DNA from: Pseudomonadota bacterium
GTDB lineage: Bacteria > Pseudomonadota > Gammaproteobacteria > Burkholderiales > Burkholderiaceae_C
Assembly (NCBI GenBank): GCA_020161065.1
Contig: JAIUPH010000011.1
Location: 124,001-188,000, forward strand
Direction: 5' to 3'
DNA length: 64,000 nucleotides
Shown here piece by piece: positions 33,910-55,110 of this stretch (positions are counted from its first letter, which is position 1; every line of letters starts with the position of its first letter). The notes beneath the pieces are model-generated. The model was given only the letters and a program-made list of their open reading frames with translations. It was not told the origin of the DNA and ran no database searches. A program made the translations under genes and the position numbers.

Positions 33910-34878
33910 ATGACCGGCGCCGGCCAGGCCGCCGAGGGCGCGGGCGAAAGCCTGCGCACCGTGCTGGTGGCGCTGGCCGTGAACGCCTTGATCGCGTCGG
34001 CCAAGAGCGTGGCGGCCGCCATCAGCGGCTCGGCCGCGATGCTGGCCGAGGCGGCGCATTCCTGGGTCGATGCCGGCAACGGCATCTTCCTGCTGCTGGC
34101 CGAGCGGCGCGCCGCGCGCGCGCCGACCGCGCTGCACCCCATGGGCTTCGGCCGGTCGGCCTACGTGTGGGCCATGGTCGCCGGCTTCGGGCTGTTCACC
34201 GCCGGCGCCGCGGTGTCGGTGATGCACGGCATCGCCGCCTTGCGCGCCGGCCCGGCGGCCGGCGCGGCGCAGGACACCACGCTGGCCTATGTGGTGCTGG
34301 CCGTGGCCTTCGTGCTGGAGTCGGTGTCGTTCCTGCAGGCGCGGCGCCAGGTGGCGCAGGCGGCACGCTCGCGCGGCCGGCAGCCCTGGGCCTTCGTGCT
34401 GGGCACCTCGCAGACCACGCTGCGCTCGATCTACCTCGAAGACATCACCGCGCTGGGCGGCATCGTCATCGCCGCGCTGGCGCTGTGGCTGGGCGAACGC
34501 ACCGGCAATCCGATGTACGACGCGGTGGGCTCCATCCTCGTGGGCCTGTTGCTGGGCGCGGTGGCCATCGTGCTGATCGTTCGCAATGCGCAGTTTCTGG
34601 TGGGCGACCCCGGCACGCCCGAGATGCGCGCCGCGCTGCGCGACTGGCTGCTGCAGCAGCGCGACGTGCAGCGCGTGGGCACCATGCACATCGAGTTCGT
34701 GGGCCCCGGGCGCGTGCTGGTGGTGGCCGCGGTCGGCCTTGCCGGCGACCCCGTGGCCTCGGTGCTGGCGCGGCGGCTGCGCGCGCTGGAGGACGAACTG
34801 TGCCGGCTGCAGCCCGCGGTGGCGCGCTGCCTGCTGACGGTGGGCTTGCCGGACGGCGACGAGGCCTGCGCGCCGTAG
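33910..34878 (+). CDS. Cation diffusion facilitator (CDF) family transporter
   Basis: CDF proteins export Zn2+, Fe2+ or other divalent metals by proton antiport. The 322-residue protein has the N-terminal span signature AVNALIASAKSVAAAISGSA, followed by AAHSWVDAGN, which carries the HxxxD metal site of span II. A second site occurs later (YLEDITALGG). A C-terminal cytosolic domain includes DVQRVGTMHIEFVGPGRVLV. Metal choice is not clear. It follows the PRC-barrel gene on the plus strand. Confidence 0.88.
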   Translation: MTGAGQAAEGAGESLRTVLVALAVNALIASAKSVAAAISGSAAMLAEAAHSWVDAGNGIFLLLAERRAARAPTALHPMGFGRSAYVWAMVAGFGLFTAGAAVSVMHGIAALRAGPAAGAAQDTTLAYVVLAVAFVLESVSFLQARRQVAQAARSRGRQPWAFVLGTSQTTLRSIYLEDITALGGIVIAALALWLGERTGNPMYDAVGSILVGLLLGAVAIVLIVRNAQFLVGDPGTPEMRAALRDWLLQQRDVQRVGTMHIEFVGPGRVLVVAAVGLAGDPVASVLARRLRALEDELCRLQPAVARCLLTVGLPDGDEACAP

Positions 34879-34893
34879 CGGCGCGTGCGGCCC

Positions 34894-35391
34894 TCAGGCC
34901 CGCGCGCGCACGGCGGCGACGACCTCGGCCTTCAACTCGGTGCTCGACACGCCTTCGGTGCGCGGCAGGTAGACCACGTCGCACAGCGGCTTGAACTCGT
35001 CGAAGCGCCCTTCCCAGTCGCTGCCCATCACCAGCGCATCGGCGCCATGGGCGACGATGTCGTGCGCCTTCTGGCCCCAGTCGGTCTCGGGGATCACCGC
35101 GTCGACCCAGCGGCAGGCGGCCACCATCGCCGCGCGGTCGGCGTACGGCACGACCGACTGCTTGCCCTTGACGGCGTTGAACTCGTCGGTGGAGACGGCG
35201 ACCACCAGGCGGTCGTAGCGCTGGCGGATGCGCTCGAACAAGCGCACGTGGCCGATGTGGAACAGGTCGTAGGTGCCGTAGGTCAGCGCGACGGTGGGCA
35301 CCGTGGAGCGCGGCGCAATGGTGGGCGCGGCCGGGCCGGCGCCGGTGCCGACTGAAGACGGACGAACGGCAGGAGCGGCGGGCAGGCTCAT
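34894..35391 (-). CDS. Glycerol-3-phosphate cytidylyltransferase-like (TagD family)
   Basis: The family makes CDP-glycerol (or a similar CDP-polyol) from CTP. The nucleotide-binding HIGH motif is in LTYGTYDLFHIGHVRLFERI. Other TagD features are VAVSTDEFNAVKGK, IPETDWGQKAHDI, MGSDWEGRFDEF and the closing YLPRTEGVSSTELK with the ISSTxIK-type element. About 30 Ala/Pro-rich residues precede the domain, so the true start may be later. It converges on the CDF gene and lies after dctP. It is the likely partner of the glycerophosphotransferase at 26.5 kb. Confidence 0.85.
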   Translation of the reverse strand: MSLPAAPAVRPSSVGTGAGPAAPTIAPRSTVPTVALTYGTYDLFHIGHVRLFERIRQRYDRLVVAVSTDEFNAVKGKQSVVPYADRAAMVAACRWVDAVIPETDWGQKAHDIVAHGADALVMGSDWEGRFDEFKPLCDVVYLPRTEGVSSTELKAEVVAAVRARA

Positions 35392-35529
35392 CGCGGCGGG
35401 GCTTTCGGCAATCGGGTGACGGCGGCCGCCGCACGCGGCCGCTCCGATGCCGAATCTAGGCCGCCGCCGCCGCCGGCAAAGCCCCGAACAAGCGCCCGCC
35501 GGCGGCCTTGTTCGCCGCCTGGCGCCGCT

Positions 35530-36579
35530 TCAGGTCTTGCCGTTCTTGGCGATCAGCGACTTGGCCGCCGCCAGCAGGTCCTTGCCCTTGAAGCCGCGCT
35601 TGTCCATGTCGGCCACCCATTCCTCGTCGACGTGGCTGGACAGCTTGATGAACTCTTCGCGCTGCGCCGCGGTGAACTGGTAGATCTGGTTGCCGCGGTC
35701 CACGGCGGCCTTGCGGCCCAGCGCGTCGTTGCCCTGCTGCGTCTTGCCCAGCCAGGCCGAGGTGGCGAGGCCCGAGTTGGCGTCGATCACCTTCTTCAGG
35801 TCGGGCGCCAGGCCGTCGTAGCGGGCCTTGTTCATCGCCATCACGAAGGTGGTGGTGTAGAGCGCGCCGCCGCTGTTGTCGAACTCGCTGTGGTACTTGG
35901 TCAACTCGTGCACCTTGACCGAAGGCACCACCTCCCAGGGGATCACGCAGGCGTCGATCGTGCCCTTGCTCAGCGCGTCGGGAATCTGCGGCAGCGGCAT
36001 GCCCACCGGCGTGGCGCCCACCGCCTGCAGCATCTTGGTGACCAGCCGCGTCGGGCCGCGCACCTTCATGCCCTTCAAGTCGGCGACGCTCTTGATCGGC
36101 TTGTGCGCCGAGTGGAACATGCCGGGCCCGTGCACCTGAAGCGCCAGCACGTGGGTCTCCTTGAACTCGTCGGGGCAATAGGTCTGGTAGTACTCCCAGT
36201 AGGCCTTGGAGGTGGCCTCGGCGTTGTTCATCATGAACGGCAGCTCGAACACCTCGATGCGCGGGAAGCGCCCGGCCGTGTTGCCGGGCAGCGTCCACAC
36301 CACGTCGACCACGCCGTCGCGCGCCTGGTCGTACAACTGCACCGGCGTGCCGCCGAGCTGCATGGCCGGGTAGCCCTCGAACTTGATGCGGCCGCCGCTG
36401 TCCTTCTCGACCTTCTCCATCCAGGGCTTGTGCATCGACAGCCAGACGTTGCTCATCGGCGCCATGAAGGTGTGGAACTTGAGCGTGACCGTCTGCTGCG
36501 CCAACGCGGCCAGCGGCGTGCCCAGCGTCGTGGCGGCAGCAGCGGCGGCGCCGCCGCTGATCAGGGTGCGACGTTTCAT
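35530..36579 (-). CDS. TRAP transporter periplasmic substrate-binding protein (DctP-type)
   Basis: This protein captures an organic anion for the DctQM permease. The leader [20 protein letters not shown] carries paired basic residues of Tat type and ends near AALA. The mature chain has the DctP fold signature: FELPFMMNNAEATSKAYWEY, DLKGMKVRGPTRLVTKMLQA and the ligand-binding Arg region. The length of 349 residues is usual. It is the last of the QMP genes, an order different from the common PQM. The substrate is unknown; context suggests an aromatic or amine compound. Confidence 0.93.
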   Translation of the reverse strand: MKRRTLISGGAAAAAATTLGTPLAALAQQTVTLKFHTFMAPMSNVWLSMHKPWMEKVEKDSGGRIKFEGYPAMQLGGTPVQLYDQARDGVVDVVWTLPGNTAGRFPRIEVFELPFMMNNAEATSKAYWEYYQTYCPDEFKETHVLALQVHGPGMFHSAHKPIKSVADLKGMKVRGPTRLVTKMLQAVGATPVGMPLPQIPDALSKGTIDACVIPWEVVPSVKVHELTKYHSEFDNSGGALYTTTFVMAMNKARYDGLAPDLKKVIDANSGLATSAWLGKTQQGNDALGRKAAVDRGNQIYQFTAAQREEFIKLSSHVDEEWVADMDKRGFKGKDLLAAAKSLIAKNGKT

Positions 36580-36666
36580 CGAAGGTCTCCAGGTAAGGCG
36601 AAATCGGCAAAGCCGGCAACTTAACGACCGGCGCGCCGCGCGGCCGTCCCGGTTTTCCCTAGGACG

Positions 36667-37986
36667 CTAGTTGATGAAGCGCACCAGCCACAGCGGCACG
36701 ATCGGGAAGAACAGGAACAGCATGGTGCGCAGCACGTCGCTGATGAGGAACGGGAACACGCCGCGGTAGGTCTCGGCCATCGGCACGTCCTTGGCCATGC
36801 CGTTGACGATGTAGACGTTGAGCCCCACCGGCGGCGCGATGAGCCCGAAGCCCACCGTCATCAACACCATGATGCCGAACCAGATGGCCGCCATGTCCTT
36901 GGGCATGCCGAAGTCGAGCGCCATCACCATCGGGAAGAAGATGGGAATGGTTAGCAGCAGCATCGACAGCTCGTCCATCACCGCGCCCAGCAGCACGTAG
37001 AACAGCAGGATGGCCACCACGATCCACAGCGGCGACAGCCCCCAGCTGCCGACCACCGCGGCCAGCTGGTTGGGCACCTGGGTCAGCGCCAGCGCCGAGT
37101 TCATGAGGTCGGCGCCGATGAAGATGAAGAAGATCATCGCCGCGCTGGCCGCCGTGCCGTAGAAGCACTGCTTGAACTTCTCGAAGGTCATGCCGCCGCG
37201 CAGCAGCGCGGTGAGGAAGGTGGTGGTGGCGCCGACCGCCGCGCCTTCGGTCGGCGTGAACAGGCCGCCGTAGATGCCGCCGAACACCAGCGCGAAGATC
37301 AGCAGGATGGGCGCGATGCCCATCACCGCGCGCAGGCTCATGCGCGGCGGCGTGTCTTCGACCTCGGGCGCGTGGCCGGGATACAGGCGCACGTAGATCG
37401 CCACCGCGACCATGTAGCCGACCATCGCGATCAGCCCCGGCACCACGGCGGCGGCGAACAGCTTGCTGATGTTCTGCTCGGTGAGGATGGCGTAGATCAC
37501 CAGCACGATCGACGGCGGCAGCTGGATGCCCAGCGTGCCGCCGGCGGCGAGCGTTCCGGTGGCGATGCGGCCGGAGTAGCCGTGGCGCGTCATCTCCGGC
37601 AGCGCCACGCTGGTGATGGTGGCCGCGGTGGCCACCGACGAGCCGCTGATCGCGCCGAAGGCCGCGCAGGCCAGCAGCGAGGCCATCGCCAGCCCGCCCT
37701 TGAAGCGCCCCATCACCGAGGCCGCGAACTCGAACAGCGCCTTGCTGATGCCGCCGTGCGTGGCGAACTGCCCCATCAGGATGAACAGCGGGATCACCGA
37801 CAGGTCATAACTGGCGAAACGCGCGAACGCCTGGGTGTTGAGGAAATTGGCGTACGGCAGCCAGCCAGCCTGCAGCAGGTAGCCGATGGACCCGGCGGCG
37901 AACATGCTCACCGCGATCGGCACGCGCAGCGCCATCAGCAGCAGCATCGAGCCGAAGATCAGCCCGGTCAGCATCAGCGGCGTCAT
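36667..37986 (-). CDS. TRAP transporter large permease subunit (DctM-type)
   Basis: DctM forms the Na+-coupled transport channel. The ATG at 37986 overlaps the dctQ stop and gives 439 residues starting MTPLMLTGLIFGSMLLLMAL. There are about 12 spans, with family motifs CAAFGAISGSSVATAATITS, IATGTLAAGGTLGIQLPPSI and TPTEGAAVGATTTFLTALL. The frame remains open upstream through dctQ, but that is shadow sequence. It is 87 bp before dctP. Confidence 0.95.
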   Translation of the reverse strand: MTPLMLTGLIFGSMLLLMALRVPIAVSMFAAGSIGYLLQAGWLPYANFLNTQAFARFASYDLSVIPLFILMGQFATHGGISKALFEFAASVMGRFKGGLAMASLLACAAFGAISGSSVATAATITSVALPEMTRHGYSGRIATGTLAAGGTLGIQLPPSIVLVIYAILTEQNISKLFAAAVVPGLIAMVGYMVAVAIYVRLYPGHAPEVEDTPPRMSLRAVMGIAPILLIFALVFGGIYGGLFTPTEGAAVGATTTFLTALLRGGMTFEKFKQCFYGTAASAAMIFFIFIGADLMNSALALTQVPNQLAAVVGSWGLSPLWIVVAILLFYVLLGAVMDELSMLLLTIPIFFPMVMALDFGMPKDMAAIWFGIMVLMTVGFGLIAPPVGLNVYIVNGMAKDVPMAETYRGVFPFLISDVLRTMLFLFFPIVPLWLVRFIN

Positions 37987-38459
37987 GCGGCGGCTTCCTG
38001 GTCGAAGCCGCGCAGCGCCTGCGCCAGGCCGATCACCGCGGTCAGCGCCAGCGGCGGCACCATGCCGACGTAGACGGTCCATTCGGGCAGGCCCATCATC
38101 ATCGAGCCGGCGCCCGAGTTCCAGGCGTTGATGCCGCCGATGGCGGTGCGCCAGGCCAGCAGCCCCATCGCCAGCGCCACCGTGAAGGCGCCCATGCGGT
38201 CGAGCCCGTCCTGCACCGACTGCGGCGCGCGGTTGGTGAAGAAGTCGACGATGATGTTGTTGCGCCGCACCTGGCACCAGGGCATGAACAGCGCGATGGC
38301 CGCGCCGGCCGCGAAGCCCGACAGCTCGAACGCGCCGACGATGCTCCAGCCCGTGGTATTGCGGCCGATCAGGCTGATGCAGGTCATCAAGGTGATGACG
38401 ATGATCAGCACGCCGGCCAGGATGGCGCACAGCTTGGCCAGCTGCTCCAGCAGTTTCAT
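37983..38459 (-). CDS. TRAP transporter small permease subunit (DctQ-type)
   Basis: DctQ is the four-span small membrane subunit that joins DctM. The 158-residue protein has spans near residues 10-30, 45-65, 88-108 and 130-150. The pair-family pattern VGAFELSGFAAGAAIALFMP, CQVRRNNIIVDFFTNRAP is clear. It is the first TRAP gene, 120 bp after the ligase gene, and overlaps dctM by 4 bp. Confidence 0.92.
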   Translation of the reverse strand: MKLLEQLAKLCAILAGVLIIVITLMTCISLIGRNTTGWSIVGAFELSGFAAGAAIALFMPWCQVRRNNIIVDFFTNRAPQSVQDGLDRMGAFTVALAMGLLAWRTAIGGINAWNSGAGSMMMGLPEWTVYVGMVPPLALTAVIGLAQALRGFDQEAAA

Positions 38460-38579
38460 GACGCCCCTCAGGAAGATGCCGCCGCGGCCAACGCCTCACG
38501 TCGCCGGGCAACGATGGAGCCGGATTCTTGGGCCGGCCCGGCGGCCGTCAATGCTGATCTTTCCCGATCGCCCGGCCGC

Positions 38580-40070
38580 TCAATAGCGTGAGAAATACTC
38601 TCGCCGCTGCCAGTCGTCCTGGTCCTCGGCCTGCGCGTGGCGCTGCGCTTCCGATCGCTTGATGCGGCCGAGCAGGCGCACGAAGTCGGCGCCGAAGCCC
38701 TGGGTCATCACCGCGCTGGCCTCCAGCGCGTCGAGCGCGGCGTCCAGGCTGGTGGGCAGCGCCGGGCCGCCGTCGGCATAGGGCGCGTCGGTGGCCGGCG
38801 GCGGCTGCAGGCCGCGCTGCAGGCCGTCCAGCCCGGCGTGCACCTGCGAGGCCATGTAGAGGTAGGGGTTGGCCATCGGCTCGCCGATGCGGTTCTCGAT
38901 GCGCGTGCCGGCGTCGCCCGGCGCGCCCAGCACGCGCAGCATGGCGCCGCGGTTGTCGCGCCCCCACAGCGCGGCCAGCGGCGCCAGCGCGTTGGGCCGG
39001 AAGCGCGCGAAGGCGTTGACCGTGCTGCAGCCGAACACCGCGGCCGCGGCGGCATGCTGCAGCAGCCCGGCCAGCCAGGCGGCGCCGGCGTCGGACAAGG
39101 TGGCGCGCGCGTCGTTGGCCGTGGGCAAGGCCGCGCCGGCGGCCGGCGCGTCGCGCATGAAGGCGTTGCGGCCGTCGGCGCGGCTGACCAGCGACTGGTG
39201 CAAGTGCCAGCCGCTGGACATGATGTTGGGAAACGGCGGCCGGCACATGAAGGTGGCGTGGTAGCCGGCGCGCTGCAGCGCCTGGCGCACGCCGTTGCGG
39301 AACAGCACCATGCGGTCGGCCGCGGTCAGCGCGTCGGCCACGTCGAACACCGCCTCGAATTGGCTGGGGCCGAGCTCGATCTCCAGCGAGCGCAGCGGCA
39401 GCGCGAGGCCTTGCGCGGTGCGGCGCACGATGTCCAGCATGGCGTGCGCGCGGTCGGCCCAGGCTTCGGACAGCAGGTTGTAGCCCGGGTGCAGCAGCGC
39501 CACCTGCGGCGGCTCGCCGGGCCAGGCGGCGGCGGCCGGGTCGTCGCGCTCGGCGACGATGCGGTAGACGTGGAACTCGACCTCCAGCCCGCAATGCAAC
39601 TCGTAGCCCTGCGCCGCCAGCCGCTGCAGCGCGGCTTGCAGCACGCGGCGCGGGTCCAGCGCGACGGGGCTGCCATCGGCGAACCAGGGCTCGCCGCGCA
39701 GCCAGGCGGTGCCCGGCGCCCAGGGCAGCATCACCAGGCTGGCGGGATCGGGCAGCAGCAGCAGGTTGCCGGCGCCGAACAGGTCGGCGAAGCCCGGCAG
39801 TTCGGCCTGGGTGCCGCGCTCGAACACCTTGAACGCGGTGCGGTCGGAGGTGTCCTTGAGCATCAGCGTGTTGACCAGGCCCAGGCCGTCGCGCAGCGCC
39901 GAGGGCAGCGCCTCGGGCATCAGCGTCTTGCCGCGCAGCATGCCGTGCAGGTCGCACCAGCCGACGCGGACCTGCTCGACGCCTTGCGCCTGCAGCGTCT
40001 GCAGCAGCGCCTGGCAGGCAGCCTCGCGCCCGGCGTCGTGCACGCCGCAGCGCTGGGCGAAGCCGCTCAA
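38580..40070 (-). CDS. Glutamine synthetase-like gamma-glutamyl ligase
   Basis: The protein has the glutamine synthetase fold of the GlnA/PuuA group: VGWCDLHGMLRGKTLMPEAL near the start, GLEVEFHVY (metal-binding Glu), ELGPSQFEAVFDVAD, SSGWHLHQSL, and TRIENRIGEPMANPYLYMAS. Such relatives join glutamate to amines using ATP. The TTG at 40070 overlaps the Rieske stop (TTGA); a GTG at 40043 is the alternative. Translational coupling to a ring-hydroxylating oxygenase recalls gamma-glutamylanilide synthase in aniline degradation. The amine here is unknown. It is clearly distinct from the puuA paralogue at 53.7 kb. Confidence 0.88.
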   Translation of the reverse strand: MSGFAQRCGVHDAGREAACQALLQTLQAQGVEQVRVGWCDLHGMLRGKTLMPEALPSALRDGLGLVNTLMLKDTSDRTAFKVFERGTQAELPGFADLFGAGNLLLLPDPASLVMLPWAPGTAWLRGEPWFADGSPVALDPRRVLQAALQRLAAQGYELHCGLEVEFHVYRIVAERDDPAAAAWPGEPPQVALLHPGYNLLSEAWADRAHAMLDIVRRTAQGLALPLRSLEIELGPSQFEAVFDVADALTAADRMVLFRNGVRQALQRAGYHATFMCRPPFPNIMSSGWHLHQSLVSRADGRNAFMRDAPAAGAALPTANDARATLSDAGAAWLAGLLQHAAAAAVFGCSTVNAFARFRPNALAPLAALWGRDNRGAMLRVLGAPGDAGTRIENRIGEPMANPYLYMASQVHAGLDGLQRGLQPPPATDAPYADGGPALPTSLDAALDALEASAVMTQGFGADFVRLLGRIKRSEAQRHAQAEDQDDWQRREYFSRY

Positions 40071-41443
40071 GACGCGGCCTCGGCCGCGGTGCCGGGCGCC
40101 GGCGCGGCCGCGGCCAGCCAGGGCGCGCCCTGGCGCTTGGCCTGCACCTGCGCGGTCCAGAAGCGCTCCCAGTCCTGCGCCGGGGCGATGCAGTCGATGG
40201 TGTCGGGCGCCGTGGCCGCCTGCGCCGGGCGCGGCGGCGGCTTGCCGGCGGCCACGGCGTCGATGGCGGCCATCAGCGCGCGGCGGTTGGCCATTATCAC
40301 CTTGTCGCTGGTGCCCAGGTGCTCGCGCGTGCGGTCCTGCAGCGCGCCCATGCTCTCCACCGCCCACTGGTCGTGCACGTTGATGTCGTTCTCGCCCATT
40401 CCGAGGTAGGTGCGCGTGCGCTGTTCGGCGCTGTCGTAGCCCCAGTCGTTGTGGCGGCCCTTCTTGGGCACGTAGTCGGGCAGGTTCACCGCGTCCAGCC
40501 GCTGGCGGCGCATCTCTTCCTTGTCCAGCGGATCGGCATAACTGGTGAAGAACGAGTACCAGTAGGTGTTGACGTCGTCCACCGGCACGTGGAGCTGGGT
40601 GATGGTGATGGTCTCCGACAGCGGGATCACGAAGGTGTACGGGAACAGCGCGTTGGTCACCCGCACGTGGGTGAGCTGGTCGTTGATCAGGCGCAGCGTG
40701 GTCAGCCGCAGGTGGCCGTCGGCCAGGTTCTCGTGGCGGATCTCGGGGCGGTGGAACTCGCGCATCACGCGCGTCATCGGCCAGCGCTCGCCGTCCACCG
40801 CGCCGACGCTGGCGCCGCGGAACTGGCGGCCGTAGGTGTGCGACAAGTCCTCGTCCTGCAGGAAGCGGTGCAGGAAGGAGGCGTGCGCCGGATCGATGCC
40901 GACCTCGAAGGCCTGCAGCCAGTTGCACTTCCATAGCCCCTTGAAGGCGAAGCTGTGGCTGGCCGGCGCGCGGAACGCGTCGATCGCCGGCAGCGGCGCG
41001 GGCTCGCTGCCTTCGTCGCCCAGCCAGGCGAACAGCACGCCGGCCACCTCGCGCACCGGGTACGAGCGCTGGCGCACGCGCTGGCACAGCGTGGAGCCGT
41101 AGGGCTCGGCCGGCGTTTCCAGGCAGCTGCCGGCGGCGTCGAACTTCCAGCCGTGGAAGGGGCAGCGCACGCCGTCGCCTTCGTGCCGCGCGAAGGCCAG
41201 GTCGGCGCCGCGGTGCGGGCAGTCGCGATCGAGCAGGCCCCAGCGGCCTTGCTCGTCCTTGAAGAGGATGAAGTCCTGCCCGAGCAGCCGCACCGCCTTC
41301 AGCGGCCGTTCGGCCATGCGCGGGTCGAAGCGCGGATCGAACTCGTCGACCAGGGCCGCCGGGTGCCAGTAGTGGCGCATCAAGGCGCCGCCCGCCGTGC
41401 CGGGACCGATGCGGGTGATGCGTTCGTTGTGTTCGGCTTGCAT
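40067..41443 (-). CDS. Rieske non-heme iron oxygenase, alpha subunit
   Basis: This is a ring-hydroxylating oxygenase or demethylase. The Rieske cluster ligands are C75 and H77 (DCPHRGAD) and C94 and H97 (RCPFHGWKF). The mononuclear iron facial triad is in FEVGIDPAHASFLHRF (D184 region, H187, H192). At 458 residues it resembles phthalate 4,5-dioxygenase-type and related single-component alpha subunits. No reductase or ferredoxin gene is adjacent, so electrons must come from elsewhere. It opens the operon running to the ligase and TRAP genes. The substrate is not evident from sequence. Confidence 0.9.
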   Translation of the reverse strand: MQAEHNERITRIGPGTAGGALMRHYWHPAALVDEFDPRFDPRMAERPLKAVRLLGQDFILFKDEQGRWGLLDRDCPHRGADLAFARHEGDGVRCPFHGWKFDAAGSCLETPAEPYGSTLCQRVRQRSYPVREVAGVLFAWLGDEGSEPAPLPAIDAFRAPASHSFAFKGLWKCNWLQAFEVGIDPAHASFLHRFLQDEDLSHTYGRQFRGASVGAVDGERWPMTRVMREFHRPEIRHENLADGHLRLTTLRLINDQLTHVRVTNALFPYTFVIPLSETITITQLHVPVDDVNTYWYSFFTSYADPLDKEEMRRQRLDAVNLPDYVPKKGRHNDWGYDSAEQRTRTYLGMGENDINVHDQWAVESMGALQDRTREHLGTSDKVIMANRRALMAAIDAVAAGKPPPRPAQAATAPDTIDCIAPAQDWERFWTAQVQAKRQGAPWLAAAAPAPGTAAEAAS

Positions 41444-41765
41444 GCCAGACCTCGCAGCGTGACGGTGATGCGTCGGAGTCTAGCGGCGGCGGGCGGCGCC
41501 GGCCGGCTGCCGGTAAACCCGCGCATGCGCGGCGCTCGATTGCCCCGACGGTTCGTATCGGCGAGCAGCAAGTTCAGTAAGATGTTTCCGCGACGACCCT
41601 CACCCCAACCCTCTCCCGCACGCGGGAGAGGGAGTGAAGCGAGACGCCCTCTCCACCGGAAACGGGGGAGAGGGTTGGGGTGAGGGGGTGCGGCGGGTCA
41701 TGCCAAGCTTCGTTGCCAACAGAAATCATGATGCGCCACGACTGCAACGCGCGGAGCCGTTTGCG
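41444..41765. other. Gene-free stretch before the small antitoxin-like ORF
   Basis: This 322-bp gap carries the upstream (promoter) region of the Rieske operon at its left and a 90-bp perfect inverted repeat element at 41597-41686. No convincing coding sequence is seen in it. Confidence 0.65.
41597..41686. repeat. 90-bp element with perfect 21-bp inverted ends (REP-like doublet)
   Basis: The arm at 41597-41617 begins CCCTCACCCCAACCCTCTCC, and its exact complement is at 41666-41686. Inside, CTCTCCCGC (41611-41619) pairs with GCGGGAGAG (41622-41630). It is two facing copies of the unit seen singly at 2206-2241, the arrangement typical of REP doublets (BIME-like). Confidence 0.8.
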
Positions 41766-41969
41766 ATGACAACCGCCGGCAAGACCATCGAGCATTGCCG
41801 CACGCGCGCCGAGTTCATCGCGCGCGGCCTGGCTTCGCGCGAGGAGGCCAGACGCACCGGCGAGTTCCGTCCGGCGCGCGAGGTGCATGCCGAGTTGGCG
41901 CGGATGCTCGAGAAGGCCAAGGCAAGGCTCCTGGCCAAGCGCGATCGACTCGAAGACGACGATCACTGA
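41766..41969 (+). CDS. Small charged protein, possibly an orphan antitoxin
   Basis: The 67-residue frame starts MTTAGKTIEHCRTRAEFIAR and is predicted helical and strongly charged (HAELARMLEKAKARLLAKRD). Size and composition resemble small antitoxins that precede RelE/ParE-type toxins, but no toxin follows; the next genes are convergent. The start is preceded by GGAGCCG. A weak, non-family call; it could be non-coding. Confidence 0.45.
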   Translation: MTTAGKTIEHCRTRAEFIARGLASREEARRTGEFRPAREVHAELARMLEKAKARLLAKRDRLEDDDH

Positions 41970-41996
41970 CCCGCGGCCGTTGGCGCGGCAGGCTGC

Positions 41997-42853
41997 CTAC
42001 AACCCCCGCACCATCTCCACGTGGGCGATGCCGGCCTCGTCGAACTGCGGGCCGCGCGGCTGGAAGCCGGCGCGCAGGTAGAACGGCGCGGCGCTGAGCT
42101 GGGCGTGCAGCAGCACCTCGCGGTCGCCGCGGGCGCGGGCCTCAACCATCAGCGCATCGAGCACGGCGCGGCCGATGTGGCTGCCGCGCATGGCCGGCAG
42201 CACGGCCATGCGGCCGATCTTGGCGGTGCCGGGCACGTGCTCCAGCAGCCGCCCGGTGGCCAGCGGCATGCCGAAGCGGTTGTAGGCCACCGCGTGCAGG
42301 CAGCCGGCGTCGGCGGCGTCCCACTCCATCTCGGCGGGGATCTTCTGCTCGTCGATGAAGACGGCGGCGCGGATCTTCTGCGCCTCGCGGCCCAGCTCGT
42401 CCCAGGGGCCGACGCGCACGTCGACCATGGGCTTGCCGGCCTCGAAGCCGAGCAGCACCTCGCGCAGGTCGGGCGGCACCGGGCGGCTCGCCATCGTGGC
42501 CGGGTCGGCGAAGACGTAGACCAGCTCGCCGCGCACCAGCCGCTCGTCGCCGCGCAGCACGGCGCCTTCGAACACCAGCGACGAGTTGCCGATGCGCGCG
42601 CAGCGCACGGCCACCTGCAACTGGTCGTCGTAGCGCGCCGAGCCTTCGTATTCGACCGTGGCCTTGCGCACGTAGAGGTCGCCCTGCAGCAGCTCCATGG
42701 TCTCGTGGTACGGCAGCGCCAGCGCGCGCCAGTAGCCGGCGATGGCGGTGTCGAAGTACATCAGGTAGTGGCCGTTGAAGACGATCTTCTGCATGTCGAC
42801 CTCGGCCCAGCGCACGCGCAGGCGGTCGAAGAAGCGGTAGTCCGATCGGTGGT

Positions 42854-43905: not shown

Positions 43906-45054
43906 ATGGCCCGCATCCTGTACCTGACCCAGATCGACATCGACTTCGGCGTGATCAGCCTGCTGCCCGAGGAATGCCGGCGCATCGGCATCGCCAAGCC
44001 GCTGGTCGTCACCGACCCCGGCGTGCGCGCCGCCGGCGTGCTGCTGCCGGCGCTGGACGCGCTGGGCGCGCTGCCGCACGCGGTGTTCGATCAGACGCCC
44101 AGCAACCCCACCGAGGCCGGCGTGCGCGCCGCCTGCGCCGTCTATCGGGCCGAGGGCTGCGACGGCTTGATCGCCGTCGGCGGCGGCAGCAGCATCGACC
44201 TCGCCAAGGGCGTGGCGATCGCCGCCACGCACGACGGGCCGCTGAAGACCTACGCGACGATCGAAGGCGGCAGCCCGAAGATCAGCGAGCGCGCGGCGCC
44301 GCTGATCGCCGTGCCGACGACGGCCGGCACCGGCAGCGAGGTGGCGCGCGGCGCCATCGTGATCGTCGACGACGGCCGCAAGCTGGGCTTCCACAGCTGG
44401 CACTTGATGCCCAAGGCCGCGCTGCTCGACCCCGCGCTGACGCTGGGCCTGCCGCCGCTGCTGACCGCGGCCACCGGCATGGACGCGATCGCGCATTGCA
44501 TGGAAACCTTCATGGCGCCGGCCGTCAACCCGCCGGCCGACGGCATTGCGCTGGACGGGCTGCAGCGCGGCTGGGCACACATCGAGCGCGCCACCCGCGA
44601 CGGCCAGGACCGCGACGCCCGCTGGGCCATGATGAGCGCCAGCATGCAAGGCGCCATGGCGTTCCAGAAGGGGCTGGGCTGCGTGCATTCGCTGTCGCAC
44701 AGCCTGGGCGGCGTCAACCCGCGGCTGCACCACGGCACGCTCAACGCGATGTTTTTGCCGGCGGTGATCGCCTTCAACGCCGGCGCGCCCAGCATCCAGG
44801 CAGAGCGCCGCTTGCAGCGCATGGCCCAGGCCATGGGCCTGAGCGGCTGCGACGAGCGCGGCAGCGAACTGGGCTCCGCCATCCGCGCGATGAACGCCCG
44901 CCTCGGCCTGCCGACCGGGCTGCGCGCGATGGGCGTGAGCGAAGACCAGTTCGACCGCGTGATCGACGGCGCGATGGCCGACCACTGCCACAAGACCAAC
45001 CCGCGCCTGGCGACGCGCGATGACTATCGGGCGATGCTGGAGCAGTCGATGTAG
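43906..45054 (+). CDS. Iron-containing (group III) alcohol dehydrogenase
   Basis: The 382-residue protein has the NAD(P)-binding GLIAVGGGSSIDLAKGVAIA, the following PTTAGTGSEVARGAIVIV, and metal ligands in GMDAIAHCMETF, HSLSHSLGG and LHHGTLNAM. It would interconvert an alcohol and an aldehyde or ketone. It stands alone on the plus strand, divergent from the esterase, so no pathway is clear. Confidence 0.9.
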   Translation: MARILYLTQIDIDFGVISLLPEECRRIGIAKPLVVTDPGVRAAGVLLPALDALGALPHAVFDQTPSNPTEAGVRAACAVYRAEGCDGLIAVGGGSSIDLAKGVAIAATHDGPLKTYATIEGGSPKISERAAPLIAVPTTAGTGSEVARGAIVIVDDGRKLGFHSWHLMPKAALLDPALTLGLPPLLTAATGMDAIAHCMETFMAPAVNPPADGIALDGLQRGWAHIERATRDGQDRDARWAMMSASMQGAMAFQKGLGCVHSLSHSLGGVNPRLHHGTLNAMFLPAVIAFNAGAPSIQAERRLQRMAQAMGLSGCDERGSELGSAIRAMNARLGLPTGLRAMGVSEDQFDRVIDGAMADHCHKTNPRLATRDDYRAMLEQSM

Positions 45055-45747: not shown

Positions 45748-47046
<1,299 letters not shown>

Positions 47047-47129
47047 CGGAGGGCTCCAGTTGCGAGTGGGTTCAAACGAAGGATTCAACGCCTTCAGGCT
47101 AACCGCCGCGCCGGCGGCTGCCAAGACTT

Positions 47130-48011: not shown

Positions 48012-48058
48012 GCCGGGTTGGGTTCCAATGCGACACCACCAGTGTGCCCTGCCCCGCC

Positions 48059-48982
48059 ATGACCTCGTTCGCCTACCTCTCCGACCAACGTTTCATGAAG
48101 CTCGACGCGGCGCCCGGCCGGCGCTTCGGGCTGGCCGGCATCTGCTGGGACGGCAGCGTCACCAACCGCCCGGGCGCGCGCTTCGGGCCGCGCGCCATCC
48201 GCCAGGCCAGCGCCATGCTGTGCGACGGCACGCACCCGCACTTCGACACCACGCCCGACGGCCACCTGGCCGACCTGGGCGACCTGGCGCTGCCCAACAC
48301 CTCGCTCGACGGCATGCGCGCCGCGCTGGCGCCGCTGCTGCCGCCGCTGCTGGCGCGGCAGCACATGGTGTGGCTGGGCGGCGACCACTCCATCACCTTG
48401 CCGCTGCTGCGCGCCTACACGGCGCACCTGGGGCGGCCGCCGGCGGTGATCCACTTCGACGCGCATTGCGACACCTGGCAGGACCACTTCGGCGAACCCA
48501 GCGGCCACGGCACCTGGGTCTACGAGGCCATCGAGCAAGGCCTGGCGCTGGCGCAGGGCTTCGTGCAGATCGGCATCCGCTCGGCGGGCGTGCGCGCGGC
48601 GCGCGAGTATGTGCGCGACCAGGGCGGGCTGATCTTCACCGCGCGCGACCTGCGCGGGCTGGAGAGCACCGCGCAATTGCAACCGGTGCTGCAGGCCATC
48701 ACCGCGCGGCTGCAGTCGCTGGGCAACCCACCGGTGTACTTGTCACTGGACATCGACTGCCTGGACCCCGCCTTCGCCCCCGGCACCGGCACGCCCGAGC
48801 CCGGCGGCCTCAGCACCAACCAGGTGCTGACGCTGCTGGAAGAGCTGGCTGGCCTGCCCTTCGTCGGCATGGATTGCGTCGAGGTCTCGCCGCCCTACGA
48901 CCACGCCGAGCTGAGCAGCTACGCCGCGGCGCAGCTGGTCTGGACCTACCTCTGCGGGCAGTTGGCGCGCCACCCCGGGTAG
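48059..48982 (+). CDS. speB: Agmatinase / ureohydrolase
   Basis: SpeB-type enzymes split agmatine to putrescine and urea using two Mn2+. The metal motifs are LGGDHSITLP, HFDAHCDTW and LSLDIDCLDPAFAPGTGTPE. The ATG at 48059 gives 307 residues beginning MTSFAYLSDQRFMKLD. Guanidinobutyrase or a similar guanidino-hydrolase is the alternative. Position at the head of the polyamine genes supports agmatinase. Confidence 0.88.
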   Translation: MTSFAYLSDQRFMKLDAAPGRRFGLAGICWDGSVTNRPGARFGPRAIRQASAMLCDGTHPHFDTTPDGHLADLGDLALPNTSLDGMRAALAPLLPPLLARQHMVWLGGDHSITLPLLRAYTAHLGRPPAVIHFDAHCDTWQDHFGEPSGHGTWVYEAIEQGLALAQGFVQIGIRSAGVRAAREYVRDQGGLIFTARDLRGLESTAQLQPVLQAITARLQSLGNPPVYLSLDIDCLDPAFAPGTGTPEPGGLSTNQVLTLLEELAGLPFVGMDCVEVSPPYDHAELSSYAAAQLVWTYLCGQLARHPG

Positions 48983-49048
48983 CTTGATCCTGCGCAACCC
49001 GGGCCCGGGCAGCGCCTCAAGAATCCGGGCAAACCCTGGAGAGCCGCC

Positions 49049-49576
49049 ATGTCCGACGCTGCCGTCCACAAGTCCCGCCCCGTCCGCAGCCCGGCGCCGG
49101 CGCTGCCCAGCTTCGAGTCGCTCGACCGCACGCATGCCCAGGTGCTGCAGGTGCTCAAGCAGTTCGACCAGTTGCTGCAGCACCTGGACGACAACGGCGC
49201 CGACAGCGTGGCGCAGGCCAGCGCGCAGGCGATCCACGATTTCTTCACCGGCAGCGCACGCCAGCACCACGCCGACGAGGAACGCCTGGTGTTCCCCGGC
49301 CTGCTGGCCAGCGGCGACGCCGAGATGGTGCAGCACGTCAAGCGCCTGCAGCAGGACCACGGCTGGCTGGAAGAAGACTGGCTCGAACTGGCGCCGCAGA
49401 TCGAGGCCATCGCGACCGGCTACAACTGGTACGACACCAGCGTGCTGCGCCACGCGCTGCCCATCTTCACGGCGCTGTACGAAGAGCACATCGGCCTCGA
49501 AGAATCGCTGATCTACCCCGAGGCCAAGCGCCGCCAGCAGGCGCTGGCCGACGGCGCCCGCCAGCGCACGGCCTGA
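49049..49576 (+). CDS. Hemerythrin HHE-domain protein
   Basis: A soluble four-helix bundle of 175 residues that would hold a di-iron site. Ligands are visible as LDRTHAQVLQ, ARQHHADEERLVFP, LQQDHGWLEEDW, and EEHIGLEESLIYPEA. Such proteins sense or store O2, NO or iron. It follows agmatinase by 66 bp on the same strand, but any functional link is unclear. Confidence 0.88.
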   Translation: MSDAAVHKSRPVRSPAPALPSFESLDRTHAQVLQVLKQFDQLLQHLDDNGADSVAQASAQAIHDFFTGSARQHHADEERLVFPGLLASGDAEMVQHVKRLQQDHGWLEEDWLELAPQIEAIATGYNWYDTSVLRHALPIFTALYEEHIGLEESLIYPEAKRRQQALADGARQRTA

Positions 49577-49584
49577 CGCCGGGG

Positions 49585-50079
49585 CTACAGGCTCAGCGCC
49601 GTCGTCTTCTTCACCGTGCGCAGCACCAGCATGCTGTTGCTGCGCACCACGCCGGGCAGCCGCGGCAGCACCTCGGCGTGGAAGCGCTCCAGGTCTTCCG
49701 CGTCGCGGTAGACGAAGCGCACCAGGTAGTCGTTGCTGCCGGCGACGTAGAAGCAGTCCAGGATCTCGGGCTGGTCGCGCACCGCCTGCTCGAAGGCATC
49801 CAGCCGCGCCGGCTGCGTGCTTTCCAGGTTGATGATGGTGTAGCTGGTGCCGTGGCGGCCCACCGCGCGCGCGTTCACCAGCGCCACGTACTGGGCGATC
49901 ACGCCGGCGTCTTCCAGCGCCTTCACGCGGCGCAGGCAGGCCGACGGCGACAGGTGCACGCGCTCGGCCAGGTCGACGTTCGACAAGCGCCCGTCGGCCT
50001 GCAGTTCGGCCAGGATGGCGCGGTCGATGCTGTCGATGATTTCTGCATCGCGTTGCGTGCTGTCGACCGTCTTTCGCAT
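49585..50079 (-). CDS. Lrp/AsnC family transcriptional regulator
   Basis: An N-terminal winged helix (DRAILAELQADGRLSNVDLA, then LSPSACLRRVKALEDAGVIA) is followed by a RAM ligand-binding domain (AGSNDYLVRFVYRDAEDLER). The length of 164 residues is standard. It is divergent from the aminotransferase-puu genes, with a 134-bp shared promoter space, so it is the probable local regulator. An amino acid or polyamine product would be the likely effector. Confidence 0.93.
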   Translation of the reverse strand: MRKTVDSTQRDAEIIDSIDRAILAELQADGRLSNVDLAERVHLSPSACLRRVKALEDAGVIAQYVALVNARAVGRHGTSYTIINLESTQPARLDAFEQAVRDQPEILDCFYVAGSNDYLVRFVYRDAEDLERFHAEVLPRLPGVVRSNSMLVLRTVKKTTALSL

Positions 50080-50213
50080 GATGTGCGAATACTACTTGCG
50101 CGCGCCGCAGAAAGTTGCGCCGACGAGGGTAGCCGCCGATGCAAGCCGCAAGCACATTGCGCCGCCGCTTGCCTAGACTGCGTGCTTTGCCTTTCACCCG
50201 CAGGAGTGGCCGC

Positions 50214-51521
50214 ATGAGCATCGACCTCGACGCCTTCTGGATGCCCTTCACCGCCAACCGCCAGTTCAAGAAGGAACCCCGGCTGCTGGCCCGTGCCGAC
50301 GGCATGTACTACTGGGACGACGGCGGCCGCCAGGTGCTGGACGCCGCGTCGGGCCTGTGGTGCGTCAACGCCGGCCACAACCGCGCGCCCATCGTCAAGG
50401 CCATCCAGACGCAGGCCGCCGAACTGGACTTCGCGCCCACCTTCCAGATGGGCCACCCCAAGGCCTTCGAGCTGGCGGCGGCGCTGGTGAAGATCGCGCC
50501 GCCGGGCATGGAGAAGGTGTTCTTCACCAACTCGGGCTCCGAATCGGTGGAAACGGCGCTGAAGATGGCCATCGCCTACCACCGCGCGCGCGGTGAAGGC
50601 ACGCGCACGCGGCTGATCGGGCGCGAGCGCGGCTACCACGGCGTCAACTTCGGCGGCATCTCGGTAGGCGGCATCGTCGGCAACCGCAAGACCTTCGGCA
50701 CGCTGCTGGCCGGCGTCGACCACATCCGCCACACCCACGACCCCGCGCGCAACGCCTTCAGCGTGGGCCAGCCGGCGTTCGGCGCCGAACTGGCCGACGA
50801 CCTGGAGCGCCTGGTGGCGCTGCACGACGCCTCGACCATCGCCGCGGTGATCGTCGAGCCGGTGGCCGGCTCCACCGGCGTGCTGCTGCCGCCCGTAGGC
50901 TACCTGCAGCGCCTGCGCGAGATCTGCGACCGCCACGGCATCCTGCTGATCTTCGACGAGGTCATCACCGGCTTCGGGCGCACCGGCACGCCTTTCGGTG
51001 CGCTGACTTTCGGCGTTACGCCGGACCTGATGACGCTGGCCAAGGGCATCACCAACGGCTGCGTGCCGATGGGCGCCGTGCTGTGCCAGCGCAAGATCCA
51101 CGACGCCTTCATGAACGGGCCCGAGCACCTGATCGAGTTCGCCCACGGCTACACCTATTCGGCGCACCCGCTGGCCTGCGCCGCCGCCCTGGCGACGCTG
51201 CAGCTCTACCAGGACGAAGGCCTGCTCACCCGCGCCGGCGAGCTGCAGGCCTACTTCGGCGAATGCGTGCACGCGCTGAAGAGCGAGGCCAACGTCATCG
51301 ACATCCGCAACATCGGCCTGGTGGCCGGCATCGAGCTGCAGCCGCGCCCGGGCGACCCCGGCAAGCGCGCCTACGACGTCTTCACCGACTGCTACCGCCA
51401 GGGCGTGATGGTGCGCGTGACGGGCGACATCATCGCGCTGTCGCCGCCGCTGATCGTGCAGCGCGCGCAGATCGACCACATCGTCGACACCTTGCGCACC
51501 GCGCTGCGCCGGGCGGCGTAG
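50214..51521 (+). CDS. Class III omega-amino-acid:pyruvate aminotransferase
   Basis: This PLP enzyme moves the amino group of an omega-amino acid or diamine to pyruvate. The ATG at 50214 follows AGGAG. Signatures are GLWCVNAGHNRAPIVKAIQT, FFTNSGSESVETALKMAIAY, and LIFDEVITGFGRTGTPFGAL, with the PLP lysine in LAKGITNG. The 435 residues resemble beta-alanine:pyruvate transaminase. It opens the puu cluster and may act on GABA or beta-alanine made from polyamines. Confidence 0.92.
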   Translation: MSIDLDAFWMPFTANRQFKKEPRLLARADGMYYWDDGGRQVLDAASGLWCVNAGHNRAPIVKAIQTQAAELDFAPTFQMGHPKAFELAAALVKIAPPGMEKVFFTNSGSESVETALKMAIAYHRARGEGTRTRLIGRERGYHGVNFGGISVGGIVGNRKTFGTLLAGVDHIRHTHDPARNAFSVGQPAFGAELADDLERLVALHDASTIAAVIVEPVAGSTGVLLPPVGYLQRLREICDRHGILLIFDEVITGFGRTGTPFGALTFGVTPDLMTLAKGITNGCVPMGAVLCQRKIHDAFMNGPEHLIEFAHGYTYSAHPLACAAALATLQLYQDEGLLTRAGELQAYFGECVHALKSEANVIDIRNIGLVAGIELQPRPGDPGKRAYDVFTDCYRQGVMVRVTGDIIALSPPLIVQRAQIDHIVDTLRTALRRAA

Positions 51522-51533
51522 CCGGCCGGCTTC

Positions 51534-52832
51534 ATGCGCCTGCTGGCGATCGACCAGGCCCTCGCCCGCGACTCGTACTACGCCGCCACGGCGCAGCGCG
51601 CGCAGCGCTTCGCGCCGCTGCAGGGCGACGCGCAGGCCGACGTGGCCATCGTCGGCGGCGGGCTCGCCGGCCTGTGCGCGGCGCTGGACCTGGCCGCGCG
51701 CGGCCGCCGCGTGGTGCTGCTGGAAGCGCGCGAACTCGGCTGGGGCGCCAGCGGCCGCAACGGCGGCCAGGCCATCCACGGCCTGGCCTGCGAGCCCTCG
51801 GTCATCGAAAGCCAGCTCGGCCTGGACGAGGCGCGCCGCGTGTGGGCGATGTCGATCGAGGCGCTCGACCTGCTGCGCCAGCGCATCGCGCAGCACGGCA
51901 TCGATTGCGACTGGCGCGACGGCTACCTGGGCCTGGCCACCAGCGCGCGCAAGGGCGCCGAGCTGCAGGCCTGGGCCGACCGGCTGGAGCGCGTCTACGG
52001 CTACCCGCTGGCGCGCATCGCGCCGGCCGAGGTGGGGCGCTGGATCGCCAGCGAGCGCTTCCACAGCGGCGTGCACGACCCGCGCTCGGGCCACCTGCAC
52101 CCGCTGAAGTACACGCTGGGCATCGCCGCCGCGGCGGCCGCCGCCGGCGTGCAACTGCACGAGCAGACGCCCGTCACCGCGCTGCGCCAGGGCGCGCGGC
52201 CGCAGCTGGTGACGGCGCACGGCACCGTCAGCGCCGCCCAGGTGCTGCTGGCCGGCAACGTCTACCTGCAAGGCCTGGTGCCGCCGCTGGAGCCGCGCAT
52301 CATGCCGGCCGGCACCTACATCGCCTGCACTCAAACGTTGGGCGAGGCGCGCGCCACCGCGCTGGTGCCCAGCCGCTCGGCGGTGTGCGACACCAACTTC
52401 GTGCTCGACTACTTCCGCACCACGGCCGACCACCGGCTGCTGTACGGCGGCCGCGTCAGCTACAGCACCGCCACACCGGCCGACCTGGCCGAGAGCATGC
52501 GCCAGCGCATGCTGGCCACCTTCCCGCAGCTGCAAGGCGTCGAGGTCGACCATGCCTGGGGCGGCTTCGTCGACATCACGATGAACCGCGCGCCCGACTT
52601 CGGCCGCGTCGGCGGCAACGTCTACTACCTGCAGGGCTTCTCAGGCCACGGCCTGGCGCTGACCGGGCTGGCCGGGCGCCTGGTGGCCGACGCGATGACC
52701 GGCGACGCCTCGCGCTTCGACGTCTTCGCGCGCCTCAAGCACCGGCCCTTCCCCGGCGGGCGGCTGCTGCGCCGGCCCAGCCTCGTGCTGGGCATGGCGT
52801 GGTACCGCTTGCGCGATATGCTCGCGGCATGA
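51534..52832 (+). CDS. puuB: FAD-dependent gamma-glutamylputrescine oxidoreductase-like
   Basis: PuuB oxidises gamma-glutamylputrescine to gamma-glutamyl-aminobutyraldehyde. The DAO-family FAD fold begins ADVAIVGGGLAGLCAALDLA, then VLLEARELGWGASGRNGGQA. The C-terminal FAD part is NVYYLQGFSGHGLALTGLAG. At 432 residues it is the size of E. coli PuuB. It is flanked by the aminotransferase (12 bp) and puuD (ATGA overlap). Confidence 0.88.
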   Translation: MRLLAIDQALARDSYYAATAQRAQRFAPLQGDAQADVAIVGGGLAGLCAALDLAARGRRVVLLEARELGWGASGRNGGQAIHGLACEPSVIESQLGLDEARRVWAMSIEALDLLRQRIAQHGIDCDWRDGYLGLATSARKGAELQAWADRLERVYGYPLARIAPAEVGRWIASERFHSGVHDPRSGHLHPLKYTLGIAAAAAAAGVQLHEQTPVTALRQGARPQLVTAHGTVSAAQVLLAGNVYLQGLVPPLEPRIMPAGTYIACTQTLGEARATALVPSRSAVCDTNFVLDYFRTTADHRLLYGGRVSYSTATPADLAESMRQRMLATFPQLQGVEVDHAWGGFVDITMNRAPDFGRVGGNVYYLQGFSGHGLALTGLAGRLVADAMTGDASRFDVFARLKHRPFPGGRLLRRPSLVLGMAWYRLRDMLAA

Positions 52833-53620
52833 CGAAGGCGCTCAACCCCTCGGTCATGCCGCGCGCGCCCGTGGTGCTGGTGCCGGCTTGCAACAAGCGG
52901 CTGGGCGAGCACCCCTTCCACGTGGTCGGCAAGAAGTACATCGACGCCGTGCGCCTGGCCGGCGCGCTGCCGCTGATGGTGCCGCACGCCGAGGCCGACG
53001 AGATCGACGCGCTGCTCGACATGGCCGACGGCGTGCTGCTGACGGGCTCGGTCTCCAACGTCCACCCGTCGCACTTCGGCCAGGCGGTGCTCGACCCGCA
53101 ACTGCCGCTGGACCCGCTGCGCGACGGCTGGACGCTGCCGCTGGTGCCCAAGGTCATCGCGCGCGGCATGCCGCTGCTGGCCATCTGCCGCGGCGCGCAG
53201 GAAGCCAACGTGGCGCTCGGCGGCACGCTGCACCAGGCGGTGCACGACGCCGGCCCCTTCAACGACCACCGCGCCGACGACGCGCGCCCGGTCGAGGTGC
53301 AGTACGGTCCTTCGCACCCCGTGCGCCTGCGCGCGGGCGGCCTGCTGCAAGCCATCCTGCAGCAAGGCGAAGTCACCGTGAACTCGGTGCACGGCCAGGG
53401 CCTGGACCGCCTGGCGCCGGGCCTGCGCGTGGAAGCCACGGCGCCCGACGGGCTGGTCGAGGCGTTCTCGGTCGAAGGCGCGCCGGGCTTCGTGCTGGCG
53501 CTGCAATGGCACCCCGAGTGGCGCGCCGCCGACAACCCGGTCTCGGTGCAGCTGTTCAAAGCTTTCGGCCAGGCGCTGCGCAACTACCGCGACCGCGTGC
53601 GGGGCCCCTTGCCCGCCTGA
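52829..53620 (+). CDS. puuD: Gamma-glutamyl-GABA hydrolase (peptidase C26)
   Basis: PuuD hydrolyses gamma-glutamyl-GABA to GABA and glutamate. The Cys nucleophile is in PLLAICRGAQEANVALGGTL, and the His-Glu pair is in VLALQWHPEW. VNSVHGQGLDRLAPGL is the usual linking element. The ATG at 52829 overlaps the puuB stop and gives 263 residues. It lies 111 bp before puuA. Confidence 0.92.
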   Translation: MTKALNPSVMPRAPVVLVPACNKRLGEHPFHVVGKKYIDAVRLAGALPLMVPHAEADEIDALLDMADGVLLTGSVSNVHPSHFGQAVLDPQLPLDPLRDGWTLPLVPKVIARGMPLLAICRGAQEANVALGGTLHQAVHDAGPFNDHRADDARPVEVQYGPSHPVRLRAGGLLQAILQQGEVTVNSVHGQGLDRLAPGLRVEATAPDGLVEAFSVEGAPGFVLALQWHPEWRAADNPVSVQLFKAFGQALRNYRDRVRGPLPA

Positions 53621-55099: not shown

Positions 55100-55110
55100 G
55101 GAGGGCCGAG

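Follow-up and report, generated by a model that had tools for sequence, protein, structure and literature searches.

A Rieske oxygenase (RO) gene and a glutamine synthetase (GS)-like ligase gene, followed on the same strand by the genes of a tripartite ATP-independent periplasmic (TRAP) importer, form an operon in a 64,000-nucleotide stretch of a Pseudomonadota bacterium of the family Burkholderiaceae_C (assembly GCA_020161065.1, contig JAIUPH010000011.1, positions 124,001 to 188,000). This whole stretch is here called the window, and positions are counted from its first letter. By gene order, protein family and tree placement the operon appears to belong to the sad-type set (sadABD, 4-aminobenzenesulfonate 3,4-dioxygenase), and with a probability of roughly 0.7 it is predicted to be a sad-type module acting on an arylamine that bears an acid group. 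Three features appear to be new: the lack of a ferredoxin gene in this operon, a TRAP importer standing behind the RO-GS pair in a sub-lineage and, at aligned positions of the amine tunnel of the ligase, a Lys72/basic-77 signature in place of the Phe and small residues of aniline-type enzymes. The order on the minus strand is RO, GS, dctQ, dctM, dctP:

41443..40067, minus strand: RO alpha subunit, 458 amino acids; SadA-like, of the phthalate/isophthalate dioxygenase (LigXa_C) type by Pfam, sequence match to the PDB and fold match of a model
40661..40663, minus strand: Arg261 codon of the RO, equivalent of R234 in isophthalate dioxygenase (IPDO) and R244 in phthalate dioxygenase (PDO)
40067..40070, minus strand: RO stop/GS start overlap of 4 bases (TTGA), the RO's TGA overlapping the GS's TTG
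40070..38580, minus strand: GS-like ligase, 496 amino acids, TTG start; a predicted SadB-like glutamyl-arylamine ligase
39855..39857, minus strand: Lys72 codon of the ligase, at the place of the NpaA1 tunnel residue F75'
39840..39842, minus strand: Arg77 codon of the ligase, an alignment position that is basic in nearly all RO-paired ligases
38459..37983, minus strand: dctQ, TRAP small permease subunit, Pfam match over cut-off
37986..36667, minus strand: dctM, TRAP large permease subunit, Pfam match over cut-off, 4-base overlap with dctQ
36579..35530, minus strand: dctP, TRAP substrate-binding protein, Pfam match over cut-off

The original prediction for this DNA, made from the letters and their open reading frames, had placed the ligase start over the oxygenase stop and dctQMP downstream on the same strand. 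Both statements hold, and the 4-base overlap is likely to reflect translational coupling. A gap of 120 bases separates the GS gene from dctQ; a scan of positions 34500-42000 returned a weak promoter-like site in this gap (1 found against 0.3 expected) and no terminator-like site. The GC content of the operon lies within the window's own range. Taken as a whole, the earlier interpretation is supported in part. It passed over the TTG start, a second, PuuA-like GS in the window and the absence of a ferredoxin gene.

The adjacency of the RO and GS genes is not incidental. In a sample of 299 genomes from this family, 67 contain the ligase (E <= 1e-60), 66 the oxygenase (E <= 1e-90) and 64 both. Three genomes have the ligase without the oxygenase (G065, G095, whose ligase, L091, is of the aniline type, and G166) and two the reverse (G209, G291); G, L and C numbers are our labels for genomes, loci and contigs. 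The RO gene lies just upstream of GS in 56 of 60 loci of a first set. Genome, contig and plasmid sets together gave 164 distinct loci, nine of them aniline-type or remote; of the remaining 155 sad-like loci, 143 have a same-strand RO directly upstream. The 12 exceptions include six in which the ligase lies within 0.5 kb of a contig end (L136, L146, L153, L158, L162, L170), one with the genome's RO match on another contig (L076), one with the RO 2.7 kb upstream (L243), one with the RO on the opposite strand (L195), two with the RO elsewhere in the locus (L194, L220) and one in which none was found (L245). In 101 of 150 pairs no more than 5 bases separate the GS start from the RO stop (median -4). 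Over 139 pairs, the pairwise distances of the two proteins correlate with r 0.92, against at most 0.12 in 999 permutations, and with values of 0.78 and 0.94 inside the two ligase clades, A (which includes the window) and B, respectively. Across the phylum, the ligase at E <= 1e-80 occurs in 20 of 398 genomes, the window's own included. The genome search for this neighbourhood that had been proposed with the original prediction was thus carried out, and it rules out an incidental coupling.

The ligase matches Gln-synt_C over the Pfam cut-off (232 bits), with the N-terminal domain model under cut-off, and the GS active-site residues are kept. Its scores for NCBIfam equivalogs are all under cut-off: gamma-glutamylputrescine synthetase (181.5 against 650 bits), GlnA (165.9 against 429.15 bits) and type III GS (194.8 against 469.6 bits). 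The glutamyl-arylamine ligases (GoaS: NpaA1, AtdA1) are closest in sequence and fold, NpaA1 being the nearest solved structure. A tree including aniline-type and PuuA-like enzymes, likewise suggested beforehand, places the ligase beside NpaA1 and AtdA1, and an identity as PuuA or GlnA is rejected on model scores and tree. Clade A comprises 33 rows (support 100/100) and includes the window and the Hydrogenophaga loci L103 and L130; the ligase of the sulfanilate degrader N. resinovorum SA1 (L192) falls in a set neighbouring clade A. The aniline-type ligases group separately, with support of 97/46 by themselves and 97/81 when two remote rows are included. Locus L077, assigned to clade B by an identity threshold in the residue and distance counts, is placed in A by the tree, which leaves the summed counts unchanged.

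PMC11335346 describes an amine tunnel in NpaA1 with a bottleneck of F75', F86' and W235 and further specificity sites at M81' and V201; all five letters match the 8wwu chain at a single offset of 15. The F75' column is Lys in the window (Lys72) and in every one of 143 RO-paired ligases, 110 from group A and 33 from group B; L194, L195, L220 and L245 have this Lys72 too. Among seven aniline-type ligases this column is Phe in six and His in one, and two remote ligases have Phe. Position 77, Arg in the window, has a basic residue (Arg, Lys or His) in 142 RO-paired ligases and Gln in the remaining one; in the seven aniline-type ligases it is Ser, Ala, Thr or Gly. From this alignment we infer that Lys72 and the basic residue 77 may contact an acid group on the substrate ring through a salt bridge. 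The AlphaFold model of the ligase (mean pLDDT 77.8, loop 72-85 under 50) was used for the fold and not for pocket geometry.

The oxygenase exceeds the Pfam cut-offs for Rieske (59 bits) and for LigXa_C (72.6 bits), and its fold and family are those of the phthalate/isophthalate dioxygenase type. Residues C75, H77, C94, H97, H187, H192 and R261 occur in 139 of 139 compared oxygenases, and D370 in 133 of 139 and in the window. We take C75, H77, C94, H97, H187 and H192 to be the Rieske Cys/His residues and iron ligands, with D370 presumably the third iron ligand. The AlphaFold model of the RO (mean pLDDT 72.6; residues 328-377, D370 among them, under 50) likewise served for the fold only. The Arg equivalents of R261, R234 in IPDO and R244 in PDO, bind the substrate carboxylate according to PMC12445078. 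The PDO and IPDO of Comamonas testosteroni KF1 share with the window's RO the oxygenase fold, the family and this carboxylate-binding Arg, but their substrates carry no amine, and His257 of IPDO corresponds to Gln283 in the window. We know of no GS partner in the PDO and IPDO systems.

The window's genome has a second phthalate-type Rieske oxygenase (contig C33:294112-295302, 44% over the first part). In Pseudooceanicola algae p111 (L220) the Rieske oxygenase near a Lys72 ligase and a TRAP set is apparently split over two genes, 9819-11048 and 11094-11492; the catalytic part matches LigXa_C (97.9 bits) with no Rieske match, and the adjoining 132-amino-acid protein matches the Rieske domain (74.8 bits). 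In Palleronia (L194) the catalytic part is also without a Rieske match, and a small gene behind it has no Pfam match.

The nearest described counterpart is the sad operon, which according to PMC5632844 carries out the first deamination, of 4-aminobenzenesulfonate to 4-sulfocatechol, in Hydrogenophaga intermedia PBC. The same text states that the operon is fairly conserved across all Hydrogenophaga genomes then reported and that a natural original substrate is expected by its authors; the ring amine is removed there by dioxygenation, a step that is proposed for the window from its genes. Both systems have Rieske and GS-like genes in one operon and are conserved in the same bacterial family. In the window the RO lies directly upstream of the GS on the same strand and overlaps it, and the ligase groups with Hydrogenophaga ligases, apart from the aniline type. 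The window's operon differs in lacking a plant-type ferredoxin gene (sadD) and in having a TRAP importer directly behind. RO-GS-ferredoxin is found in nine of nine loci titled Hydrogenophaga, and plasmid pSA3 of strain SA1 combines RO-GS, ferredoxin, reductase and maleylacetate reductase in one locus. In the work of Gan et al. (2012, in Microbiology), activity in E. coli reportedly needed sadB. Orthology with SadA (WP_009515254) and SadB (WP_009515256) of strain PBC is proposed from genus and gene order. In listings and abstracts from the open-licence literature and in passages of PMC4539516, no statement on the natural substrate of sad-type enzymes was seen. The mab cluster for 3-aminobenzoate in Comamonas QT12 was considered as well and gave no link, the terms 'glutamine synthetase' and 'Rieske' being absent from the main text of PMC9584955.

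Under the sad-type reading, the TRAP transporter would take up an aromatic acid carrying an amino group, and the GS-like ligase would use ATP and glutamate to convert it to a gamma-glutamyl anilide, with Lys72 and the basic residue 77 holding the ring carboxylate or sulfonate at the tunnel mouth. The RO, its Arg261 gripping the acid group, would then dioxygenate the amide-bearing carbon and its neighbour, and the product would shed its nitrogen as glutamine or ammonia to leave a catechol-type acid. Electrons would come from a ferredoxin and a reductase encoded elsewhere. The most likely physiological substrate would be 4-aminobenzoate, giving protocatechuate for ring opening by a LigB-type extradiol dioxygenase; for this particular genome the assignment of 4-aminobenzoate is tentative and has rather less than an even chance of being right.

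Hints to the substrate come from the neighbours of the pair in other lineages, counted by tblastn with single queries in 90 clade-A loci with enough downstream sequence and in 32 clade-B loci. Those in independent lineages are genes for monocyclic aromatic acids. In clade A the counts are ferredoxin 69, dctP 46, FAH-family hydrolase 41, upstream GntR 40, dctM 38, upstream MaiA 34, MarR 31 and ABM 29, with gentisate 1,2-dioxygenase in 26 and 3-hydroxybenzoate 6-monooxygenase in 18, these two and the FAH-family hydrolase within 10.5 kb downstream; an LIV-type binding protein is found in none of the 90. In clade B they are LIV-type binding protein 18, GntR 14, ferredoxin 13, ferredoxin reductase 11, GATase or gamma-glutamyl hydrolase 4 and PnbB 2, with TRAP and gentisate dioxygenase in none of the 32. 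A homologue of a PcaR/PcaU/PobR-type regulator lies within 8 kb in 16 of the 32 clade-B loci, the family having been read on one regulator (L235, 319 against a cut-off of 284.75 bits). The fullest set is that of Polaromonas JS666 (GntR, RO, GS, ferredoxin, reductase, LIV transporter, GATase). In Caballeronia insecticola the pair has PnbB (4-hydroxylaminobenzoate lyase; PF16155, 201 bits) and nitroreductase genes as neighbours. Methylobacterium nodulans has a PnbB homologue (61%) together with a nitroreductase, and the locus of Cupriavidus pinatubonensis has a nitroreductase. Palleronia has pcaGH and other pca genes by the ligase, and a benzoate-CoA ligase occurs in 7 of 23 compared loci (8 by tblastn). 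The PnbB, pca, PcaR-type and benzoate-CoA ligase hints all lie outside the window's own clade. Family cluster c24 was set aside as a seeming wrong reading frame; ferredoxin and reductase genes match there, as in the annotated JS666 locus.

A small CHMI-like (tautomerase-family) gene stands directly behind a Lys72 ligase in L192 (10488-10829), L194 (10442-10792) and L220 (8347-8685) and is also clustered in L232. Aniline-group ligases on Shinella and Stutzerimonas plasmids (L217, L218) are accompanied by alpha/beta oxygenase and alpha/beta hydrolase genes, the Stutzerimonas plasmid also having an MFS transporter. On a Nostoc HK-01 plasmid (L219) a ligase near the arylamine group (36%) has no annotated Rieske gene within 6 kb.

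Candidates for the remaining functions were sought in the window's own genome. Contig C4 carries the closest homologue (58%) of the ferredoxin of clade A, and no oxygenase gene was seen by eye in the list of open reading frames around it; a second homologue (48%) on C37 adjoins a reductase homologue, and the three best reductase homologues in the genome reach 37-43%. No ferredoxin gene was seen in L043, L054 and L150 either. Protocatechuate is probably usable by this genome through ring opening, because a LigB-type extradiol dioxygenase on C31 scores over the cut-off of its class III beta-subunit model (544 against 317 bits). A homoprotocatechuate dioxygenase is present on C4.

Several observations weigh against a sad-type module acting on an acid-bearing arylamine, and against 4-aminobenzoate in particular. 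With sadD gone the operon would be a sad-like but slightly reduced, TRAP-linked variant; no ferredoxin gene is present in it, none in the 120-base GS-dctQ gap, and the candidates lie elsewhere. The node joining all Lys72 ligases is poorly supported (84/41), and the loop bearing Lys72 is not fixed in the ligase model. Arg261 is common to dioxygenases of non-amino substrates and argues for an acid rather than for an amine. In the window's own clade A, PnbB and pca genes are each found in 0 of 90 loci, the neighbours there being gentisate-pathway genes. In the genome itself no pcaH scores over cut-off, and the C31 protein is under the cut-off for the protocatechuate 4,5-dioxygenase fusion (531 against 837 bits).

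The aniline pathway had been the point of departure of the original prediction. In the aniline and 1-naphthylamine systems (atdA1-5, tdn, dca, npaA1-5) a GS-like ligase, paired as here with a Rieske oxygenase, glutamylates the ring amine before the oxygenase acts (PMC11335346), and NpaA1 is the closest solved structure to the window's ligase. A pathway of this type for neutral arylamines such as aniline, chloroanilines or naphthylamine is nevertheless very improbable here. Aniline systems, of which L197 and L198 served as control loci, carry an amidotransferase-like gene, encode alpha and beta subunits belonging to a different Rieske family and have GS as the first gene; PF00848 was found in the aniline-type RO of L093, against LigXa_C in the window's. 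As had been predicted, Pfam finds neither an amidotransferase-like gene nor an oxygenase beta-subunit gene in the window's operon. Every RO-paired ligase has Lys in place of the aromatic tunnel residue, and the aniline-type ligases stand apart in the tree. Gene content, the Rieske family and the pocket residues thus lead us to reject an aniline-type system, and to that extent the earlier proposal of a different gamma-glutamyl-amine system stands; the kind of system, however, is one already known, that of the sadABD architecture. A polyamine or alkylamine pathway of the PuuA or IpuC type, with the oxygenase an incidental neighbour, is hardly credible. PuuA, the gamma-glutamylputrescine synthetase, is also a GS-fold enzyme that glutamylates an amine, and a PuuA-like GS with polyamine genes lies about 13 kb off, but PuuA is distant in sequence, that neighbouring GS is very distant from the RO-linked ligase in the tree, the gamma-glutamylputrescine synthetase and GlnA models score far under cut-off, and the RO-GS pairing is conserved. 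To our knowledge PuuA acts on aliphatic polyamines and has no Rieske partner.

The neighbouring polyamine-type run spans 48044-60632 on the plus strand and comprises agmatinase (333/302 bits), omega-aminotransferase AptA (749/500 bits), an FAD oxidase, the PuuA-like GS (53732-55099), a second aminotransferase recognised by eye and a PotF-like binding protein (394.5 bits, under the cut-off of 636). A class-C26 hydrolase seems by eye to precede the PuuA-like GS; the tested frame gave no match. The window also holds a 4-hydroxybutyrate dehydrogenase (43906-45054, 660/500 bits) and an isocitrate lyase (45748-47124, 818/562 bits).

Two alternatives leave the chemistry or the pair intact. In one, which we regard as doubtful, the same reactions would serve another aminoaromatic acid here (3-aminobenzoate, aminosalicylate or a natural arylamine acid) and lead to a gentisate-type or other route, 4-aminobenzoate being a substrate of clade B only. 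The gentisate dioxygenase, 3-hydroxybenzoate monooxygenase and FAH-family hydrolase counts of clade A speak for it, as does the firm separation of that clade. Dioxygenation yields vicinal diols, however, so that gentisate, a 2,5-diol, would be no direct product; the gentisate genes, often preceded by a divergent MarR gene, can form an operon of their own; and the window's pair has no such genes beside it, the two gentisate-dioxygenase-like genes of the genome lying elsewhere and under cut-off. A reading of the clade-A genes for gentisate and 3-hydroxybenzoate as the downstream pathway was reduced to this alternative on two of these grounds, the diol chemistry and the absence of the set beside the window's pair. 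In the other, which also seems unlikely, the TRAP importer would serve an unrelated organic acid and stand next to RO-GS as a by-product of a shared aromatic-acid island. In its favour, TRAP genes directly follow GS in 10 of 90 clade-A loci (the window and nine others) and not in the other 80, homologous TRAP genes lie behind gentisate genes in many relatives, and the 120-base gap contains the weak promoter-like site. Against this, 11 loci in which TRAP follows the pair but gentisate genes are lacking were compared: those nine of these ten whose DctP is complete, and L136 and L067, which were added by hand. Their DctP proteins cluster as if specialised, apart from gentisate-linked DctP except L047 at the base, in a FastTree tree with midpoint root read without support values. 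In Pseudooceanicola, moreover, a different TRAP set immediately precedes a Lys72 ligase. Position and DctP grouping fit the import of an aminoaromatic acid, short of proof.

Beyond the window, a natural and widespread route for acids of the aminobenzoate type may have the sad-type pair at its core, a possibility to which we give not quite an even chance. In such a pathway 4-aminobenzoate would be the ancestral substrate, a basic clamp (Lys72 with Arg or Lys at 77) would replace the aromatic tunnel gate, and a phthalate-type RO would remove the glutamylated amine, with TRAP, LIV-type ABC or MFS importers plugged in by lineage and sulfanilate degradation as a by-use. If true, this would answer what purpose the sad operon serves in bacteria never exposed to the dye chemical. 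The two-residue signature may distinguish ligases of the acid type from those of the aniline type. Taken together, the conservation, the neighbours and the residues of the pocket make the question of the natural substrate testable, with the transporter as a further handle. Glutamylation, described for anilines, alkylamines and polyamines, is thereby suggested as a common route for aminoaromatic acids.

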